Of a stretch of 64,000 bases of DNA, positions 10,854 through 33,389 are shown one piece after another. Origin of the DNA: Massariosphaeria phaeospora (Eukaryota; Ascomycota; Dothideomycetes; Pleosporales); assembly GCA_011032825.1 (NCBI GenBank), contig JAADJZ010000022.1:682001-746000 (forward strand), written 5' to 3'. Position 1 is the stretch's first letter. Every line of letters starts with the position of its first letter. Both the position numbers and the translations under genes were made by a program. Below the pieces are notes generated by a model. The model did not search any database. It was given only the letters and a program-made list of their open reading frames with translations, and was not told the origin of the DNA.

Positions 10854-12189
10854 CAGCGGGCTCTGTGGGTGGTGGCTTGACGTCAGGAGTTTGGCTGGCA
10901 TATCGTGGCTCGTTTAGATACCAATATCGCATTGTTTCCGTTCAAGACTCTCTCTCTTTCTCTCTTTCTCCCATGCGACGAACTCTTTTCCTGCGAATAT
11001 GAGCTGTTGGTACCATATCCATCGCGCTCCAGGCGCCTACCTACCGATCCCTCGCTTGATCACACCATTATCTAGCCATCGTTTCATATCGTCGGAGTCG
11101 AGCTTACCGTTGCTTGTCAGCAGATCGAACCCGGGTACGAAGGCTTGGCTGCGTTTTCGGCACTGCCGCGTGGATTCGGAGAATTTCCACGTCCGGTATC
11201 TGTAAGTGTGACTGTGCAGAGTTCGGACCGTGGCTATTTATGGCGCAACCTGCTTCGTAGGCAACGCCCGCAATGAGAATAGACATCAGTCCGTACGTGA
11301 GTCCCTTAATGAGCAGAACTGTTGGTCGCGTTTCGACTCCTGCATCAGCGTTTGTTCACTGCTTCTTAAAATCGTCTCTTATTGTATGGATTCTGCCCTT
11401 ATCGACTCGTTCAACGAGCCACTATATCGGATGAGGATTACCCATGCGCTTGGTGATCGCCTTCTAGATAGGCAGGTGGTTGTTGGAGATGGAGGGAGTC
11501 GTTGAGGGAGCTGCGGTGATTAATCGAGGTTAGTGCGAATTTGCTAGTGTGTACGCTAACGCCAGATGCGGTATACACCCGATCTTCGGGGCGTTACACC
11601 TCACAGTCCGCCCACCGAAGCTTGCCCCCGGTATCTGACTTTTATTTTTGTATGCTTGCTGAGCAAACCAATGCGGGCGTATTCTTACATCCGGGAAAAT
11701 ATCAACACTACGCCTTGGAGACCATCCGAGGTGCCCTGCCGCGCATATGAATTTCCGAAGTCCCTCACTAGTGTCTATCTCGGACAGCTGATCCCTCGTG
11801 ATGGAAAAAGTTGATTTCCAGACAACTAGACAGAAGTACGCGTAAAGAGCAGCCGCATGAAATCGGGGCGGGACGGATGGCCCCTCAATCAGCGCATCCT
11901 GTTGATCGCGACGTCAAATGTTCATGAATAGTGATCGAACACGCGGTGAACTATATCAACACCGCTGCCGACTTGTCCATGGCTCCAAGATTAAACGGCT
12001 GTCTCCACTGCATGAAGCATTGCCTACTTACACGCTTCCGGACCAGATAGACATGACACTGGTTGATGATGTTTTAGCAGGGAATATGGTCTTCGAACTG
12101 TAAACGCACCTACAATCGTACATCTCTAGCACAAGTCCTTTGCTTTTCAGACTTAGAGAGTGTTTCTAGCCGGGACATAGCAGGCCAGT
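10854..12189. other. Intergenic, no gene recognised
   Basis: There is a CT-rich run at 10950-10970 (CTCTCTCTTTCTCTC). Only short, unconvincing open frames follow. No clear copy of the array unit seen downstream could be read here. Confidence 0.45.
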
Positions 12190-12309
12190 CTTAAGAATTT
12201 AATATTATACTAGGAAAAAGGAAAGCACATCCGGATGAAGGACGACGTACTTTAATCCTACTTTCAAGAGATAATGTGGAAGTCTAGAAAAGAGTGTAAA
12301 AGTGAGGTG

Positions 12310-15300
12310 GTTATAGGCCGGGATATGCGCTGACTATGCATGGCAATAGATCACGTGTAGGTTGCGACAGAGACTACCAGGGTTGGTTTAGAGTCCGAGG
12401 TTATCGATAGTCCACGTGGGAGTGGGGACAAAGAACGGCAGGTGACGCTTCATTTCACCCGAGGCGCCCGAGCCTTCCGACGCTGGAACATGACACAGAA
12501 TTAACACCGCGGGCAAGCACATGCAGTTCATCGTTAGCATCTTTTGATTCCAAACTCCGGAAGCGCGACACATGCAGAAGATGCACGGCTTTTTTTTAGA
12601 GGACGGGAAGATGCATTGGTGTAGTTAGAGGAAAGGAAAAAGTGTGAGTCTATATAGCAAGTTGAAGTAGCTGACAACTACGCATACCTTCCGATGAAGA
12701 TCTTCATCATCTCTCGGTTCTTCTAAGCTCCAACATCTTCGGAAGTCTACCAATCTTCGCGCGATCGTCCATGCAACACTTAAGCTCATGTTTAGCGACA
12801 AGCTCACGACTACATCCACCCGCGGGTTCTTGCTACTTTAATATCCTTGCTGCTGGGCGGGGCACATAGCAGCGTCGGTCTGAAGTTTCTTGAACAGGTT
12901 TCTGAGGATTGAGAATCGTAAAGATTAGAGCAAGAAGACGCACAAAGGATGTTTATACCCGTACTAAGTCCTTGCAATGCCAGCCTGTCGCTCGAATTAA
13001 TGTAAGTACGCCGCTGCACAGCGTCATCACTTCCCACTTCCTATCCTGCTTACTCTCTACTCGCGTGTATTGCAGCGCTCATCGCTTTACAATTTCGTAG
13101 TCTACCTCTCCAGCGGCCAGCACTATAAGATGATCCCAGCCTGATTCTATAGTCAGACGTAAGAGAATAATTCACGTTAATACTCCTAAGAGCTCATCAT
13201 CTCCATCTTTCCACTACTTCCAAAGCACCTTTCAGGAACCCGATATCCGAGTCGATTCCGCAACTCCAGTCGTGGTTCAACACACATTATTTTCTCTCTT
13301 CCAAATTTCTATTCATACGCTCGTCAGAGCAAGACGGGCTATATGAAACGTTAGCTAGAGCTTTTTTAGTTGCAAGCCTGCTAGATCTGTAGTTGTAAAG
13401 ACTTCGTAGGCAGACACGAGGTACTTTATACCCGCGGCAAAGGCTTGCACATCGGACGACTGAGAACCAACGAGCATGGTCCGAAGGTGATCATCGTCAT
13501 CATCATTTTTTTCCAAACATCCTTCTTCTCCGGTTACGCCCCGCGTGTAGGAAGCATAAGATGTATTCAGCTATATCTGCAGTGCACACAGTCCCCAGTC
13601 TACACAAGCACGCCAGAGAGGTTTCTGCTTTTAATCACAGGTTGCTGGACGTCGACCGAGGACATTTAGAATGCTGTTTTTGGGTTTACCATGGCTACAA
13701 GGGGCAGAAGAACATCGTTTGGTACGGTGTCTGTTTATAATATAGAACACTCGTAAAGATAGCGCATTTCGAAGAATAGAAGAGTGAGAGAAGGTTGGCC
13801 ATTTATACCCGTGGCGACTTTCTAGAGAAGCAACAAATGTATGCGTAGTCGCAGTTTCGAATCTTCCATGAACTCTGACTAGTATCTTTTTCGAGTGGAA
13901 AGTACTCATGACACTTGCTTGTATGTTTTTCCAGATCATGACATGGATCTAACAATCTTTTTCGCGAGCCAAACAACATATAGTATATCGTCTTGAGCTT
14001 TTTAAGCTTTTCTGCGTCAGGGCATACGCATAATATTTGCGAGATGTAGGCTTTTTAAATACTAAGCAGCCTGATCCAACAGCGAACATAATCGCTTCGG
14101 TTGAGAATTTTAGATAGCCCCATGAAAGAAGAACGATCGTGTTGAGTGAACGAAGTAGAAAACGAGTCCTATATAGTCGTAGGACGGGCTAGCTCGTACA
14201 ACGCATATTCACTCTTTCCTATCTTCGGAGGAGGCAGAGAGAAGATCCATTTATCGATCACAGAGCAGATTTCTCTCAAAACACCTTGCACCTCAGCTTT
14301 TCAACCAGAAACACACCATGACAGCGTGTCCAGATAGTTTTAATATCTCGATACAGACTTTGGAGCGAACCACACATGTTCCAAGTCTCTGGCTCTGTTT
14401 TAGTTACTGCTTCGCAAAGCCGCAGCACATAGCGCAATTTCTCGGTTGGTTTTTATACGAAGATTAACGTCAACGTCGCAAGTGTAGGAGAGATGGCGAC
14501 AGATAGTATAAGGGGCTTATATATGCGTGGAAAAGGGGAAAGAGGACCGGGTCAAGATGGAGATGGCGCACATCATCCACAGCACCTCGTTTTGCAGTTC
14601 ACGGCTGCCAGTACCGGGAACCATACTGTCATCCGTTTTCTGTAAATTCTTTTCACTTTTCTTCTAGCGGAGTTACATATGTCGACCATGTGTATCTTCT
14701 ACAAGTATCTTGTCCCAATCGGACGCACACATGCTGCCTCTTAATAATGTTTTAGAGTACCCCAAGGCGGGAGCAGACATACGCTAGGACATCTGCGGTT
14801 TTTAGAGCGAAGGCTCTGGGTGTGAAGTTGTGGGGAATATAATAGAGAAGAGAGGAGGGATCTTTATACCTGCAGCTCAGGATCCAGCAGTTGCGCATTA
14901 CCCGTCATCACCATGGAACACGAAGATGCTCAACATTGCCATTACTACTCCGTCGAGGCGTATCGTATAGTCCCGACACCCACTCCCATGAGTTTCTGTT
15001 GCATCTCTTTTGAGAGACACTCCGCCAGTCACCACATGGTCAAGCCCCGCTTCTTTTTCGATAATGTGTATCCCTCAGAAGAAGAAGCACACATATAATC
15101 TCGGTAAAGTAATTTTTAGAGGGAGCACCGAGTGCTTGCGGCTGTGAGGCAAGAAGAAGTTACGGAAGAGATGGGTCTTTATACTCCCCATTGCGCTGCA
15201 CAAAGCTATTTCCAAGCCCATCACCAGTAGCTGTACTCGGGGATAATCGTCATGGCTGTATTCTCTTCTTTTGTGCCACCGGATGTTGTTGTCGCGATAG

Positions 15301-17172
15301 CTTGAGGTACAAAGGTACCTCAGCCAGTTGAAACACCATCGCTAGCCCCACGTTTCGTTTTTAGTGCTGTACCGCTCAGAGCAAGAGGCACACATACAAC
15401 GTCGGACAGATGAATTTTTTAGAGAAGCCTCTGCAAGTGGCAGGTGTGAGGAAAACAATATAGGGAAGAGGCGGATCTTTATACCCGTCGGTTCCGAGAA
15501 TGGAGCTTCGGCACCGCCCGGCTTCTGGACATCATCACCACCACCTACACCCTGTACTGCTCACCGTCACTATGCCTGTTGATGCCTGTCTATATCTCGA
15601 AAAACTGTGCTTGCAGACCCGTCGAAATTGCTCATGATGGTACTTGAATCGCATCCGCTAGTCCACACACCATGCTTGTCCCTGCGTGTGGCATTTAGTG
15701 TTCGCCTTCCACGAAAAGAAACACTCATCCAGATTGGCGCTCATTGATTTTAGAGCGCGCCCGACGTTGGTAGTTGTGAGGAGCGAAAAGAGCGTGAGAA
15801 GACGGATCTTTATACGCTTTCCTCCGCTGCATCATCACTATTCCCGTCAGCCACCATCTTCGCTCAGAGCTGCTCATCACCACTTCCTTATCTCTACGCT
15901 CCACACCCCTCAATCCACATGCACACGCTCCTTCTTTTCCCATTTCAATTCCCAGCACACATTCTCCGCCGCCACCGATCCAACACGCATTCTGCCAGGC
16001 GTACTAGTCTTTTGATGTAGTACCCACGCAGAAGCAGACATATCCCGCTGACAAGAATGTTTTTAGTACGTCGTACAAGCGGAAGTATGTGAGGAAAGAA
16101 AGAGGTACGAGAAGGGTAGGATTTTATACCTCGCTCGTACGCCTTGGCCGCCACTCCTAGGAATCCCACGACGAAGAAGACCACCACAATCCGCTCATCA
16201 TCATCATCACCACTAACCCCTCCCTCCCCACAACCCCGCCCTACAAGCCCATGTCTTTTCTTTCTCTTTCTTTCCCCTTTCCAAACCACTCACCCCACAA
16301 AACCAACCTCTTCCGCCCCCGCCCGCCGGCCAAAACACACATTCGTTGAGATAGCTCCCCTTTCTGGTCGAGGATGCGTCTCCGAGACATCAATTGCTAG
16401 ATGTTTGTTTTTAGACCAGGATCTAGAGACGGGGAGTTGTGAGGAGGAGAGGAGAGGAGAGCAGGGCGGCGGGGGTATTTATACATGCTGTCTGGATGTC
16501 GCTTGATAAGATCAGTATTAGAATTACATCATCACTATTATCACGTCCCTTCTCTACTATTCGCAGGCTCTTACACACACAGCCCTCCACCTTTTTATCT
16601 CCTAACCCCTTAAGCTATGCACCTCGCCGAGCTATGCCCTTCGCTCCCGCAAACCAGAACGAACATGAAGCATTCTCATTCCAGTTTTTAGTCACGGACT
16701 TCTCCAAGACATGTAATTCATGTATATTTTTTTTAGATCCAGAAACTGGAGACTAGGAACTGTGAAGAAGAGAGGAGAGGAGAACAGAAGGGGGATCTTT
16801 ATACTTGCGCGTTGCATGGTTTGGGCGTTGTGCATGGGAATGGAAAGGAGGGTATCTTCATCATCGAAATTCAAACACACGATCCTCACCACCACCACAC
16901 CACACCTCCTGTCTACAGATCTTCTCTCTCTCACAACCTCACACCCTCACGCACACACACCCGGAAACATAACCCTTCGCCATACACAATTCAGTCTCTC
17001 TCCCATGCATCAGCAGCCGAGTCCCTCCGCACATCGCACGAACTGGTCAAATTTTTTATTGCTCCAGACAACAGGCGAGCCACCCCATTGCATGCTTGGT
17101 GCAAATTTTATAGCAAACCTATGCTGGGAATGAATCTGTAGAGAGTTAAAAGAGCAGAGAGACCTATATACC
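12310..17172 (-). promoter_or_regulatory. Set of minus-strand core promoters within the array
   Basis: The best TATA copies (14863, 15178, 15478, 15809, 16123 and 16798) read TATAAA followed by a CT-rich run and a CA-containing CCTCACA/CTTCACA about 30 bp away, the layout of a fungal core promoter with its start site. The secreted WSC gene elsewhere in the window has a similar box, TATAAAAAGATCC (52492), 79 bp before its ATG. In the array the TATA-to-ATG distances are 70-88 bp. Transcription itself cannot be seen from sequence. Confidence 0.5.
12388..12573 (-). CDS. Candidate 61-residue protein from array unit at 12651
   Basis: This is the longest frame that starts at a conserved array ATG. 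It begins MCRASGVWNQK and has a short hydrophobic stretch (LPAVLILCHV, about residues 20-29) that could be a weak signal peptide starting at an internal Met. The start of the peptide resembles other units: M, then Cys or Ser, then an aromatic residue and a QK-like pair near residues 8-11. Beyond that nothing is shared. Other units give 52 (15570-15728), 49 (16241-16390), 46 (13949-14089), 43 (15910-16041) and 35 codons (14673-14780). Such lengths also occur by chance, so coding status is uncertain. Confidence 0.25.
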   Translation of the reverse strand: MCRASGVWNQKMLTMNCMCLPAVLILCHVPASEGSGASGEMKRHLPFFVPTPTWTIDNLGL

Positions 17173-17175
17173 TCA

Positions 17176-17995
17176 CAGGACTGCTGAAATAATGATGAGC
17201 AGCAGCAGTATTACTAGTCCATCCCCCTCCCCCTCCGCCTTCCCCACCCCATCGCGCTATTCCCCGACTCCCAGCTCGTAGAATCCCAACATGATGTTTT
17301 TGCACTCGACTTTTATTTTTCGCCCAGTCGACCCATCATGCCATCTTTTCTCTAGAGTTTTACTCGCTGCTCAAGAGCCCAGAGACACGAGACATCCTTG
17401 TCTTGGTTCATGTTTTGTTTTTTGATGTTGCGGTGCTGCGGAGGTAGGGAAAGAAGTTGGGAGAGGGACGGTGAGAGAGAGTTTATAGGTGTTGGGCAGG
17501 GTTGTGGAATCGGATCGGTGTGTGACTGCGTTTGGTTCAGCCAGACCTTGGGGTTTGGTAATGCGCAAGGCGGCTGGAGCATGGAAGTTGAGAAGGGATA
17601 AAGTATAGCAGACGACGACCTACGTAAGTGTAGAGAGATCTTGATTGCATTGGCTACCTGCCTCATCTTGATATCATGCCAGAACGCCATTACCGTGACC
17701 GTGGCCCCATCCAAAGTCCGCGGGTTGGCAGTGTCCAGAACCTGTTCCGACTCCGTATCCAAGCTGTAGCCACAGCCATTACCAATCCAAGCCTCTGTTA
17801 TCCGTGTGCCATGAAGTGAAGCGCCCCTGCCAAAGAAATGCCGAGAAGAGTGTACGCATGCAACGCAATGCCGTAGCATCAAAGAAGAGTTATATCCCAT
17901 TCTATGAGGCATATCGCCGTCAATGCAATCGAACACGGTGCCAATGTGTGTGAGCGCTGGATCGGTAGGGAAGAAGCGATGCAGGAGGAGAGAAA
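17176..17995. other. Intergenic, no supported gene
   Basis: A 194-codon open frame on the minus strand (17352-17936) has no recognisable motif and sits directly downstream of the small mitochondrial-type gene, so it is more likely its 3' untranslated region plus chance reading frame. Confidence 0.4.
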
Positions 17996-29540: not shown

Positions 29541-32500
29541 ATGTCTTCTAATCGAAAAGGGGCCAGCGGTTCCCGCCCCGACCCAGAGCGAGCTCGTTCG
29601 CCTCGTCGTGGTTCTAGATATGACCATGATGATCGGCGTAGTGATTCTCCAAGAGGCGAACATCAGGACCCTCGGCGACGCGATCCACGAAGCCGGTCGA
29701 GGCATGAGCAGCGGGACAACGAGCATCACGACCGTCGAGACTCTAGAGCTTATCTACCACCACCACCGGAAGACACTTTCCGGCATGAATCTAGGGGCCG
29801 TCGTCGTGGTGATCGTCGTAGTGATTCTCCTGATGACAAGAACTACGACTCTCAACGGGCGCGACCGGGGTAGTCGCTCGAGGTATAGACACCCCGACGA
29901 GCACCAATCGTATCTGGATCGTCGGGCCTCCAGAGATCATCCACCAGCGCACCGTGAAGAGCGCCGGGGGTCCACGCATAGAGACCGCCCTCCACCGTAT
30001 GGCCGCTACCGTCCTCATGGAGAAAATGGACAATCGCAAGGCTATGAGCGGGACAATCGATTTGATCAACCAGCTGTTCGAGGCGCTGCTAGACCGTATG
30101 ATGATCTAGACCTCGCGCAGAATCCTACTGACCGTCTTCCTAACACCGGAAATACTCAGTTCACGAAACATCATATGGACCTGGGAACCCATATCTCCCC
30201 GGCACGTCACGAGATGATCGTGGCCACTTTTCTTCCTTCCGCGGAGTACACCCACCCCGTGGGAGGGGGTTCGAGAATAGACTACATATGCAGAGTCGAG
30301 GATCTGGTTCGCAGCATTCCGCATCACCATCCACCGCAGACCATCGTGAGCAAACTCAGCCAACTGTGTCTGATTTTCCCACCCAGCGGGATTCTATACC
30401 ACCGGAAGCTGACTATCGATATCAAGATCACCTACAAAGACCCTTTAAGCAGTTGCCTCAGGACCGGAGAGGCCTGTGGAAACCATCTACCACACGTCTA
30501 GGAACGTCACAAGACCTGTGGGTGGTGACAAACTTTGTCCAAATCAAGAAGACTCCGGATAGACTGTTTGTGGATTCCATCAGCAATTCGTACAAACGCC
30601 AACTGCCGAACGGCACAGAAGCAGATGCGAACTTCAGTCGCCGGTCTGAGCTTAAGAGTCTATTTCAAGCGGTTAGAGGTCAGTTTCTAGATGAATTCAT
30701 CGAGTCCAAAGTATGGGCCACCGACTTCCGTAGCCTGTGGACGGATGAACCGCTATTCGATCATTCCGCCAGCCTGGAACGCACCTTCGCCTACGACACT
30801 GAGAATGGCCGTACTGTTAACCCACTGACTGTTCAAATCAAACTCGTGAAGGAGTTGTCGGACCTGACACAGTACACTGGGCCACAGAATACGGTGCAAC
30901 ATGTCTCCGAGAAGCTTACAGCACTCAATGCTATTGTATCTCGGCCCGTCAATGAGCTAATCACGTCAGAAATTACCCAAGTTGGTCCAAACCGCTTTTT
31001 CATCAATGATGCCTTCACGGAAATGAAGAATTGCTAGCTGTCCGCGGCTACTATAGCTCCGTACGGCCTGGTAAAGACGGCACTCTCCTCAATATTAATA
31101 CAGCTACGGGCGTCTTCTTCCCCCCCTGTGGCGTCTCTGACTTCCTGTACGGGCTTAAGACTTTGGCATCCGAGATCAGCATCTCGGACGTAGAAAGATG
31201 GCTGAAAGGAGTTTCGCTAAGAGTATCGTACGTCAGACCACAGCTGAAGGGCCGAGAGGGCGATATCAACTCTGAAGGGAGCCGACGCAAGACGTTCAAG
31301 AATTTCGGCGAGAGCCTTGCGACGCAGCGATTCTACAGGCAAGGGGATACAAGTGCGAACGGGACGACGGTATTGCAGTATTATACTCAAGGTAGGTCAT
31401 ATGTTAACACTGGGTTGTCGACTCATCTAACGTTCTACTAGAGTTGGGTATCTCAAATCTGAATCCTACAGGAAGATGCGTCAATGTTGGCAAAAAGCTC
31501 GACCCGCTTCACACTGCTAAGCAGCAAAGTGCAAATGGTGCCATTTGGATTCCCGCTCAGCTCCTCGAAATCGAGCCCAACCAGCCCATGAAATCGCAGC
31601 TTTGCCCACAGCATACATCGCATTTGATCACACATGCCAAGCGCAACCCTAACATGAACCTTGGATTGATAGATGGGGAAGGAATGGACACGCTACAGAT
31701 CCGGAATCATGGTTGTTGGGTGAGGGTACTAGTTCCTTCCATCTAGCATCCCGCTGACATGTTTTAGCAAAACCTGAGCCTCGAGATAGATACCAAATTA
31801 ATCGATATCCCCGCATCTCTACTAGCCGCACCAGCATTACAATATCAACGGTCTCACAACAACAGACTAGTTCCTTATCGTGTTACGCCACAAAGAGCAT
31901 CTTGGAACTTTCGGCAAAACGTAGCGTTCCTTCAGGCGGGCACAATATCCGCGTTGAATTTGTTCTCATTGGACCATCGTACAAGGTCGGACGAGCTCTG
32001 TAAGAACATGGTGTCCCGACTCAGTTTTCATGGAATGATTGTTACGCAAGGACATGTCGAGACTGGATCAATTGACGGACTCGACAAATTCTGGACCAAT
32101 AGGGCCAAGGGCGATCGTACAACCTTTGTCGTCATTGAGTCCAAGGGCCCTGATAATCACGCAAAGATTAAACGGAAAGCTGACCTTACGCACGGTGTGC
32201 GAACGGTGTGCGCCGTGGGAGATAACATCCCATACTATCGTCACCGGAATAATCACCAAGATGCCGGGTACCAAGTCCAACATCTCGACAACATCGCCAT
32301 GAAGTTCAACTCCAAAAGCGGTGGTTCGAATCACAACCTTTCATCAACTTCCTTGGATCTTCTCAGAGAGTATCGGGATGTGACGATTATCCTAGGAGCG
32401 GATGTAACTCATCCTGGTGTAGGTTCACCATTTGGGTATCCGAGCGTCGCATGCGTAGTTGGAAGCGATGATAAGCAGTTCCAGAATTATCCCGGGTCTA

Positions 32501-33389
32501 TGCGCTTACAGGCTGGTGGTCAAGAGGTAAGCTACATTAATCTAGAGCAACATGCAAACACGTCTCTTGCTCGAACGAACAGGAAATTGAGGAGATGGAG
32601 GGAATGGTTTTAGAACGACTAGAAGCATGGTACATACGCAACCACCAGCAATTCCCGCGAGCCATGCTGTTCTACCGCGACGGCATCAGCGAGTCCATGT
32701 TCGACAATTGCAAAAGAATAGAGATAAGAGCTGTCCGCAACGCCTTTGACACTTTCAAGGAACGGCACGAGCAACCGGACGCGGAACTCAAACTCACCTT
32801 TGTAATCGTCAGCAAACGCCATCACACTCGCTTCTTCCCAACAACCAGCAACGACCGTCTCGATAACGGCAATCTGAAACCCGGTCTTCTCGTAGACCAG
32901 ATAGTCACCAGTCCGCGGGAGTACAACTTCTACCTGCAGTCCCACGCCGCCCTCCAAGGGACCGCTCGCTCAGCTCATTACAGCGCCCTCCTCGACGAGA
33001 TGGGCTTCGGCTCCTCCAACAACCGGCTAGCTGAGTTCACACACCATCTCTGTTACTGCTTCCCACGCGCTACGAAAGGTGTGTCGTACGCAGCTCCAGC
33101 CTACATCGCCGATCGCATGTGCGAACGCGGCCGGCAATACTTGAGGCCCTGGGTTCCGACGGATGAGTACAAGACGCCGCTGGATGCCCAAGGCAACAGG
33201 CTTCAGACCAAGGAAGCTATCCGGCGGTGGAAGAGGGACATGACTTCGCAGCTGGCGCGGAACGCCCAACTGCCATCGAACGACAATGAGCGGGTGTGGG
33301 GTAATTACACCGACATGCCCGCGCCAGGCGGGCAAATAAGACTGAACCCATGGCACCCCAATCTGGACAATACAATGTTTTGGATGTAA
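29541..33389 (+). CDS. Argonaute (PAZ-PIWI) protein with frame disruptions in the 5' half
   Basis: From ATG 29541 an Arg/Ser/Asp-rich leader (SPRRGSRYDHDDRRSDSP) runs in one frame to about 29860, in the +1 frame to about 30260, and back in the first frame to about 31025. The N-terminal domain (VVTNFVQIKKTPDRLFV) and linker follow. At 31025-31030 a further one-base break precedes LLAVRGYYSSVRPG. Introns 31392-31441, 31720-31767 and 32527-32582 then join the PAZ end and an unbroken MID-PIWI region: ILGADVTHPG, YRDGISESMF, and a C-terminus ending NTMFWM. Catalytic Asp/Glu/Asp positions look kept; the fourth position is Asp (AYIADRM), as in many fungal Argonautes. The role is small-RNA-guided silencing. 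Disruptions could be real decay or sequence error. Confidence 0.8.

Follow-up and report, generated by a model that had tools for sequence, protein, structure and literature searches.

Same-strand arrays of TATA-headed units with a length-conserved A-run/ATG cassette in Massariosphaeria phaeospora, a possible source of small RNAs

The DNA analyzed here (the window) is a 64,000-nucleotide stretch from the fungus Massariosphaeria phaeospora, bases 682001-746000 of contig C15 (750456 bases). Between 12052 and 17487 (~12.05-17.49 kb) its minus strand carries an array of ~16 diverged units, each headed by a TATA box and followed by cassettes in which a run of A is separated from an ATG by a nearly constant distance. 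Pattern searches of the M. phaeospora genome place it among many arrays of this kind, in each of which short units headed by TATA boxes share one strand. An earlier note, made from the letters alone, had described about 15-16 such units in order on the minus strand; they are real, and the location given (12190..17175) is corrected in that the array starts one unit earlier, at the TATA at 17487, and its last cassette ends near 12052.

The TATA boxes, all on the minus strand, lie at 17482..17487 (unit 1, with a CT-rich leader followed by CAAAA and an ATG at 17417), 17165..17170 (unit 2, with a second TATA at 17112), 16798..16803 (unit 3), 16478..16483 (unit 4), 16123..16128 (unit 5), 15809..15814 (unit 6), 15478..15483 (unit 7), 15178..15183 (unit 8), 14863..14868 (unit 9), 14518..14523 (unit 10), 14170..14175 (unit 11), 13802..13807 (unit 12), 13425..13430 (unit 13), 12952..12957 (unit 14) and 12651..12656 (unit 15), and a weak TATA (CTATAAC) at 12310..12315 heads unit 16. 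Their spacing is 300-377 bp, with a single gap of 473. Behind TATA the boxes come in the order CCTCACA or CTTCACA, then CTAAAA; exact copies within 11.5-17.8 kb number 7 and 15, respectively.

Thirty minus-strand A-run/ATG cassettes were found between 17417 and 12052. Those beginning with TAAAA include two in unit 3 (first, TAAAA-N18-ATG, 16710..16735; second, N19, 16664..16690) and one each in unit 4 (N18, 16388..16413), unit 5 (first, N19, 16039..16065), unit 6 (N19, 15726..15752), unit 7 (second, N19, 15337..15363) and unit 8 (first, N19, 15092..15118). Further along the array they lie in unit 9 (first, N19, 14778..14804; second, N17, 14730..14754), unit 10 (first, N20, 14428..14455; second, N20, 14375..14402; third, N18, 14317..14342), unit 11 (first, N18, 14087..14112) and unit 15 (first, N20, 12571..12598). 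The spacers of the first cassettes of units 5, 9 and 10 were used in a genome-wide search (see below). The ATGTSTGC box of the earlier note does occur in six exact copies in the array, as one form of this A-run, 17-20 nt, ATG element, which is often present more than once per unit.

The order of boxes was compared with 1000 dinucleotide shuffles of 12001-17300. In the real sequence 27 A-run/ATG pairs were counted (shuffled mean 2.27, maximum 7), as were 12 complete modules of TATA, A-run and ATG (shuffled mean 0.057, maximum 2). Over this interval the plus strand held no pair and no complete module, and pair density was 5.1 per kb in the array compared with 0 to 0.15 elsewhere in the window. 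Pairwise local alignment of 330-bp units gave a mean score of 15.8 against 10.5 for a reverse-complement control; this mean includes one trivial overlapping pair (17170/17112, score 273) and is 13.7 without it. Neighboring units in 14.8-16.8 kb aligned with scores far above shuffles, and most pairs involving the units below 14.6 kb or the unit at 17487 did not. Across 14 aligned units the mean column identity was 39%, with few columns kept. Tandem Repeats Finder reported nothing in 12-17.5 kb and a DNA search of the genome returned no second copy of the window array.

Over all arrays, the cassette consists of WYTAAAA (the best form of the A-run), 17-20 nt of free sequence and (C)ATG(G/T). It is directional and runs one or more times along the units: an A-run of four or more, with its ATG, stands behind the first leader, and further ones often follow downstream. 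Counted from the base that precedes the A-run, the ATG lies at 22-25 nt; the first A-run of unit 7, at 26 nt from its ATG, falls outside this rule. In 14 arrays at 13 places the rule was obeyed by 264 of the 425 array-strand A-runs preceded by two non-A letters, compared with 12 of 139 on the opposite strand; 11 of the 264 had been part of the search pattern by which six loci were selected. It was obeyed by 94 of 119 A-runs after CT, and in the window array alone by 24 of 33 as against 0 of 11 on the other strand. In nine stretches at eight places matching or adjoining TATAAA, CTCACA and CTAAAA, a selecting pattern from which ATG is absent, the gap from TAAAA to ATG was 18 nt in 38 cases and 19 nt in 36, with ~2.7 cases for each other gap up to 60 nt; in the rest of the window the distribution of gaps was flat. 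Three held-out loci (L036-L038) gave 41 pairs at 22-25 nt where 7.8 were expected, 5 of the 41 belonging to the pattern that selected these loci, and 4 against 2.6 expected on the other strand.

The sequence around the two boxes is only weakly constrained. Extra letters before the A-run are W at the third place and C/T at the second, and the base directly before it is most commonly T (170/327). The ATG is preceded by C in 51% of cases, and by a pyrimidine before its A in 74%; G/T follows it in 76%, and then A-poor sequence. The two boxes make a signal that keeps a length without kept sequence, in 327 cases over 70 kb of arrays. The number of elements varies with the definition used (129 with strict TAAAA; 216; 283; 327; and 422 with A-runs of at least three), and several stretches were cut by eye to the array limits before counting. 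Omitted from the counts were L012 (a match on C34, by eye located before an open frame), L022 (C45:2072 kb, with one cassette on the plus and five on the minus strand) and the plus strand of L021 (four cassettes).

The module pattern TATAAA/CTCACA/CTAAAA occurred exactly at 14 places in the genome, compared with one in the control. A further pattern gave 9 matches against 0 (those on C34 and C49 were not inspected), a TATA/CTAAAA/ATG pattern 77 against 15, and a pattern of two consecutive cassettes 49 against 4; by eye, AT-rich dispersed repeats make up 16 of the 77 and 8 of the 49. The places counted lie on C1, C2 (two), C8, C12, C13 (three), C15, C16, C27, C28 and C45. One of these loci (L017, C45:2018500-2028400) holds two diverging arrays, minus strand then plus, with different flank families. 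A narrow pattern (CTCACAACT, CTAAAAA, ATG) had a single match, which was one unit of the window array, and a scan of IMG/VR with the promoter module returned no match. Elsewhere on C45, five two-cassette matches on both strands fall within 11 kb (117899-128708), probably another array cluster. Separately, at eight places (for example C1:2646096 and C50:1512874) an AT-rich dispersed repeat with a transposon-like look matches the two-cassette pattern exactly.

The earlier note had held that only the boxes are kept. This is so for distant units; between neighbors in other arrays the flanks are retained and it is the 17-20-nt spacer that tends to be lost. In a set of 216 elements, 30 pairs were alike in their upstream flanks; in these pairs spacer identity was 0.28 (background 0.257), and the downstream flank, on which no selection was made, was ~0.49 identical over 20 positions. 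When 35 pairs within arrays were chosen by their upstream flanks, spacer identity was 0.351 compared with a background of 0.309, and downstream identity 0.576 compared with 0.342. The downstream flank was more alike than the spacer in 31 of these pairs, less alike in 3 and tied in 1 (22 vs 3 without C28). Within arrays ~25 nt after the ATG are kept.

C28 holds a compact repeat-spacer array in which a kept segment of ~35 nt alternates with changing spacers, mostly of 18-20 nt. An alignment of two C27 units, 303 columns long, has an identity of 0.77; here the first spacer and ~25 nt after it have no clear likeness, and in the second spacer 15 of 17 bases agree. Milder spacer change was seen between other neighbors (C2 and an array on C13, C13c). 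Element pairs are not independent, and in C28 the downstream flank of one element is the upstream flank of the next. When leaders, spacers and downstream stretches were compared with gaps allowed, no clear contrast emerged, with a high identity floor and some values undefined. The strength of the contrast depends on the method: ungapped tests are positive, and more strongly so for pairs selected on upstream similarity. It is likely, though short of proven, that spacers change faster than their surroundings. Swapping of spacers between arrays was not detected, as seven matches of at least 10 nt are about the shuffled number.

Searches for known families covered the window and nine array loci, with L022 and L036-L038 outside the search, and found no Rfam match at the gathering score; the window array had three weak matches only, with E up to 5. 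No transfer RNA was found. For proteins, open frames of at least 130 codons were tabulated in ten loci and nine window frames were searched in Pfam. Piwi-domain matches in the genome number 14 and fall at nine loci, of which the window contig has three; some of these matches hold internal stops (introns or decay). Within the window an Argonaute gene in pieces lies at 30288-33389 on the plus strand, ~13 kb from the array; ArgoN scored below the Pfam cut-off, and Piwi, in two exons at ~32.1-33.1 kb, above it.

The arrays may be an undescribed source of small RNAs. As a tentative model, more readily doubted than accepted, we propose that they consist of TATA-driven non-coding RNA units and that the 22-25-nt cassettes are cut from the precursor and loaded into Argonautes. 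Each unit would be a short non-coding RNA gene with a TATA, a CT-rich stretch and a start near the CTCACA-like boxes, and a small hairpin would tend to form in its leader, ahead of the first CUAAAA. The hairpins just before the CUAAAA of first cassettes scored 4.06 compared with 3.52 for permuted controls, a difference reached in 0 of 200 permutations. The TATA on the same strand, the leader hairpin and the strict spacing together lead us to infer a transcribed, RNA-level signal. The two boxes would then be read on the RNA by a length-measuring machine blind to the sequence between them, marking the ends of a 22-25-nt segment in a single-stranded, largely unstructured precursor; this segment would presumably be cut out and loaded into one or more of the Argonautes of the genome. 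Each cassette would yield its own small RNA, and a change of spacer would change the guide. An unlikely extension is that these are undescribed, genome-encoded eukaryotic guide cassettes on TATA-driven precursors, whose exchangeable 17-20-nt spacers, set between an invariant A-run and an invariant AUG, are renewed faster than their surroundings to give 22-25-nt Argonaute guides, perhaps against elements now gone from the genome.

Several results weigh against the proposal of excised, Argonaute-loaded RNAs. We infer transcription from promoter-like boxes, most A-runs come from places selected with patterns that contain an A-run, and the nearness of the Argonaute gene may be chance. When 52 pairs were chosen by their downstream flanks the contrast between flank and spacer was weaker, 35 vs 13 (22 vs 13 without C28); background pairs lean to the flank as well (2025 vs 1368), and the window array supplies none of the 35 upstream-chosen pairs. 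Because of the weaker downstream-chosen contrast we slightly lowered our estimates both for excised small RNAs and for renewed guides, and raised that for a signal which merely measures length. Three of 422 spacers were searched for genome targets at up to two mismatches, and the one second place found (two mismatches) was judged to be at chance level; no complementarity between spacers was seen. Matches of 11 nt between spacers and the rest of the window were slightly enriched (50 and 44 of 422 in the two orientations, compared with ~34 and 35 shuffled), which, being present in both orientations, we took as composition. The modest hairpin test at first cassettes followed hairpins spotted by eye, and there was no hairpin before later cassettes (z -1.5). 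In 129 cassettes, hairpins between spacer and flank or within flanks were in no excess over permuted partners, covariation for a fixed structure did not rise above the permuted maximum, and spacer accessibility and folding showed no selection, as in a neutral linker. Finally, a small RNA with its 5' end at the U of UAAAA would have almost the same seed in every case and so make a poor guide. Two smaller searches are recorded with these: a 22-nt piece after one ATG had one match elsewhere in the genome with three mismatches, and a DNA search with joined spacers gave zero matches and was blind even to the spacers themselves.

In this length-measuring alternative, a protein or ribonucleoprotein (RNP) contacts WYUAAAA and CAUGK on the non-coding RNA, needs 17-20 nt between them and is indifferent to their sequence, the arrays serving as RNA scaffolds or decoys that load many copies of the RNP. 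We regard this as rather doubtful. Across arrays only boxes and length are kept, none of the three searched spacers matched convincingly elsewhere in the genome and spacer folding is not under selection, all as expected of it; within arrays, however, the spacer tends to outpace flanks that are not shared between arrays, and the C27 pair, with its first spacer wholly changed and its second kept, is unlike a neutral linker beside free flanks. The cassettes might instead act on DNA, as mini-promoters in which WYTAAAA is TATA-like and C|ATG an initiator at 23-24 bp, so that RNA starts at the ATG. The loci of nematode 21U-RNAs, which are separate small genes behind a shared motif, offer a model for this. 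Strict spacing, the pyrimidine before the ATG, the free spacer, the ~25 nt kept after the ATG and the orientation of the counted cassettes, which is that of the TATA boxes of their array, are all consistent with it. The TATA boxes themselves, however, lack this spacing: a CACA-like start is present in 34 of 65 units, and 33 of these end 34-51 bp after the TATA. The ATG is also far stricter than initiators known to us, and the leader hairpin hints at RNA, so that we consider mini-promoters quite unlikely. Less probable again are early 3'-end signals stacked behind promoters to keep transcripts short, with an A-rich hexamer, ~18 nt, cleavage at CA and a G/T-rich element. The metazoan poly(A) site has an A-run, then CA, then A-poor G/T-rich sequence, and the cassette resembles it in order and composition; yet elsewhere in the window it does not rise above background, so genes there do not use it, and we know of no poly(A) sites that fix the distance within 4 nt or require an ATG.

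Of the three readings in the earlier note, the best fit is the tandem family of tiny genes or non-coding RNAs. No coding signal was found behind the cassette ATGs. Tiny peptide genes starting at these ATGs would account for the order of TATA, leader and ATG, and a few neighboring frames in the C28 and C45 arrays look alike by eye. Against them, the next A-run fell evenly relative to the ATG frame (33/33/36), and open reading frames (ORFs) from cassette ATGs (median 22 codons, mean 29.9) were no longer than those from array ATGs at large (19 and 30.5) or in the two other frames (medians 14 and 23). Third positions after the ATG were not freer in the position profile, and a purine at -3 was not favored. 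Such genes are contradicted as they stand and we find them scarcely credible. The second reading, decayed copies of one gene kept only at the 5' end, is not supported, given the same absence of coding signal and the recurrence of the boxes inside units; the third, a chromatin or regulatory array, is possible. It is also highly improbable that the arrays are a functionless satellite, transposon or repeat decayed by repeat-induced point mutation (RIP). Toward the far end of the array the units look old and decayed, and local tandem duplication has taken place, with a C2 plus-strand copy identical at 509 of 555 positions; on the other side, arrays with little else in common retain the same two boxes and length, and DNA search finds no second copy of the window array. 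A satellite or tandem repeat was rejected, the units not being alike enough to align throughout. A RIP-mutated repeat was rejected likewise, as the indices TpA/ApT (0.86) and (CpA+TpG)/(ApC+GpT) (1.15) of the array match those of the window at 17.5-64 kb (0.82 and 1.13).

By analogy, the logic of the arrays appears nearest to 21U-RNA clusters and, at C28, to repeat-spacer arrays, with membership in neither shown. Nematode 21U-RNAs (Piwi-interacting RNAs) come from many tiny non-coding units in clusters with otherwise unique sequence. Like these, the arrays are same-strand clusters with a short motif at a set distance and unique sequence. They differ in motif from the nematode CTGTTTCA, for which no search was made, in having the free sequence between two boxes and not after one, in their fungal host and in carrying several cassettes per TATA unit, and their small RNAs are predicted ones. 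The nematode system has a shared short motif and a single-stranded precursor (PMC4050365).

The C28 array resembles prokaryotic clustered regularly interspaced short palindromic repeats (CRISPR) in its kept segment alternating with changing spacers. The arrays differ in their RNA polymerase II-like promoter boxes, and the search with three spacers revealed no source for them; a CRISPR array proper was rejected, as repeats visibly differ even in C28 and are not shared between arrays. In clusters of small nucleolar RNAs (snoRNAs), too, small non-coding genes stand in tandem and carry short boxes a set distance apart; the arrays are unlike them in having no Rfam match at the gathering score, in the window or nine array loci, and boxes that are neither C/D nor H/ACA. 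With fungal microRNA-like RNAs (milRNAs) and other Argonaute-bound small RNAs the arrays would share the nine Piwi loci of the host and a cassette length of 22-25 nt, close to fungal small-RNA size; unlike milRNAs they have no long hairpin precursor in the structure tests, and small RNAs are here only predicted. To our knowledge no 21U- or piRNA-like class is known in fungi, and the literature listings on tandem non-coding RNAs of fungi, arrays of promoters, clusters of small RNAs and Argonautes held no description of such arrays. Colletotrichum higginsianum has two Argonautes, and Colletotrichum AGO1 prefers a 5'U, though at 21 nt (PMC4890784); T is likewise the most frequent base ahead of the A-run in the cassettes.

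If the units are indeed transcribed and cut, the fungus would have numerous clusters, each on a single strand, of small-RNA units that are individually unique yet obey a sequence rule one line long, somewhat like nematode piRNA clusters; the rule is checkable in any Pleosporales genome and in one small-RNA library. Even a mere length-measuring RNA element would pose a new recognition problem, that of a length kept without sequence.

Two further observations were made at the arrays. At one locus (L033, 5043-5460) three repeats of GAAAAGGTATGGAYCCGTACGR-ATGG mimic the element opposite a 316-codon frame, and are perhaps a coding repeat. Upstream of the TATA boxes in 11 arrays, TGATGA/GGTGAT was found in the last 60 bp in 13 of 61 cases where 3.8 were expected, and 8 times at 60-120 bp where 1.8 were expected; this is perhaps a shared upstream activating site.

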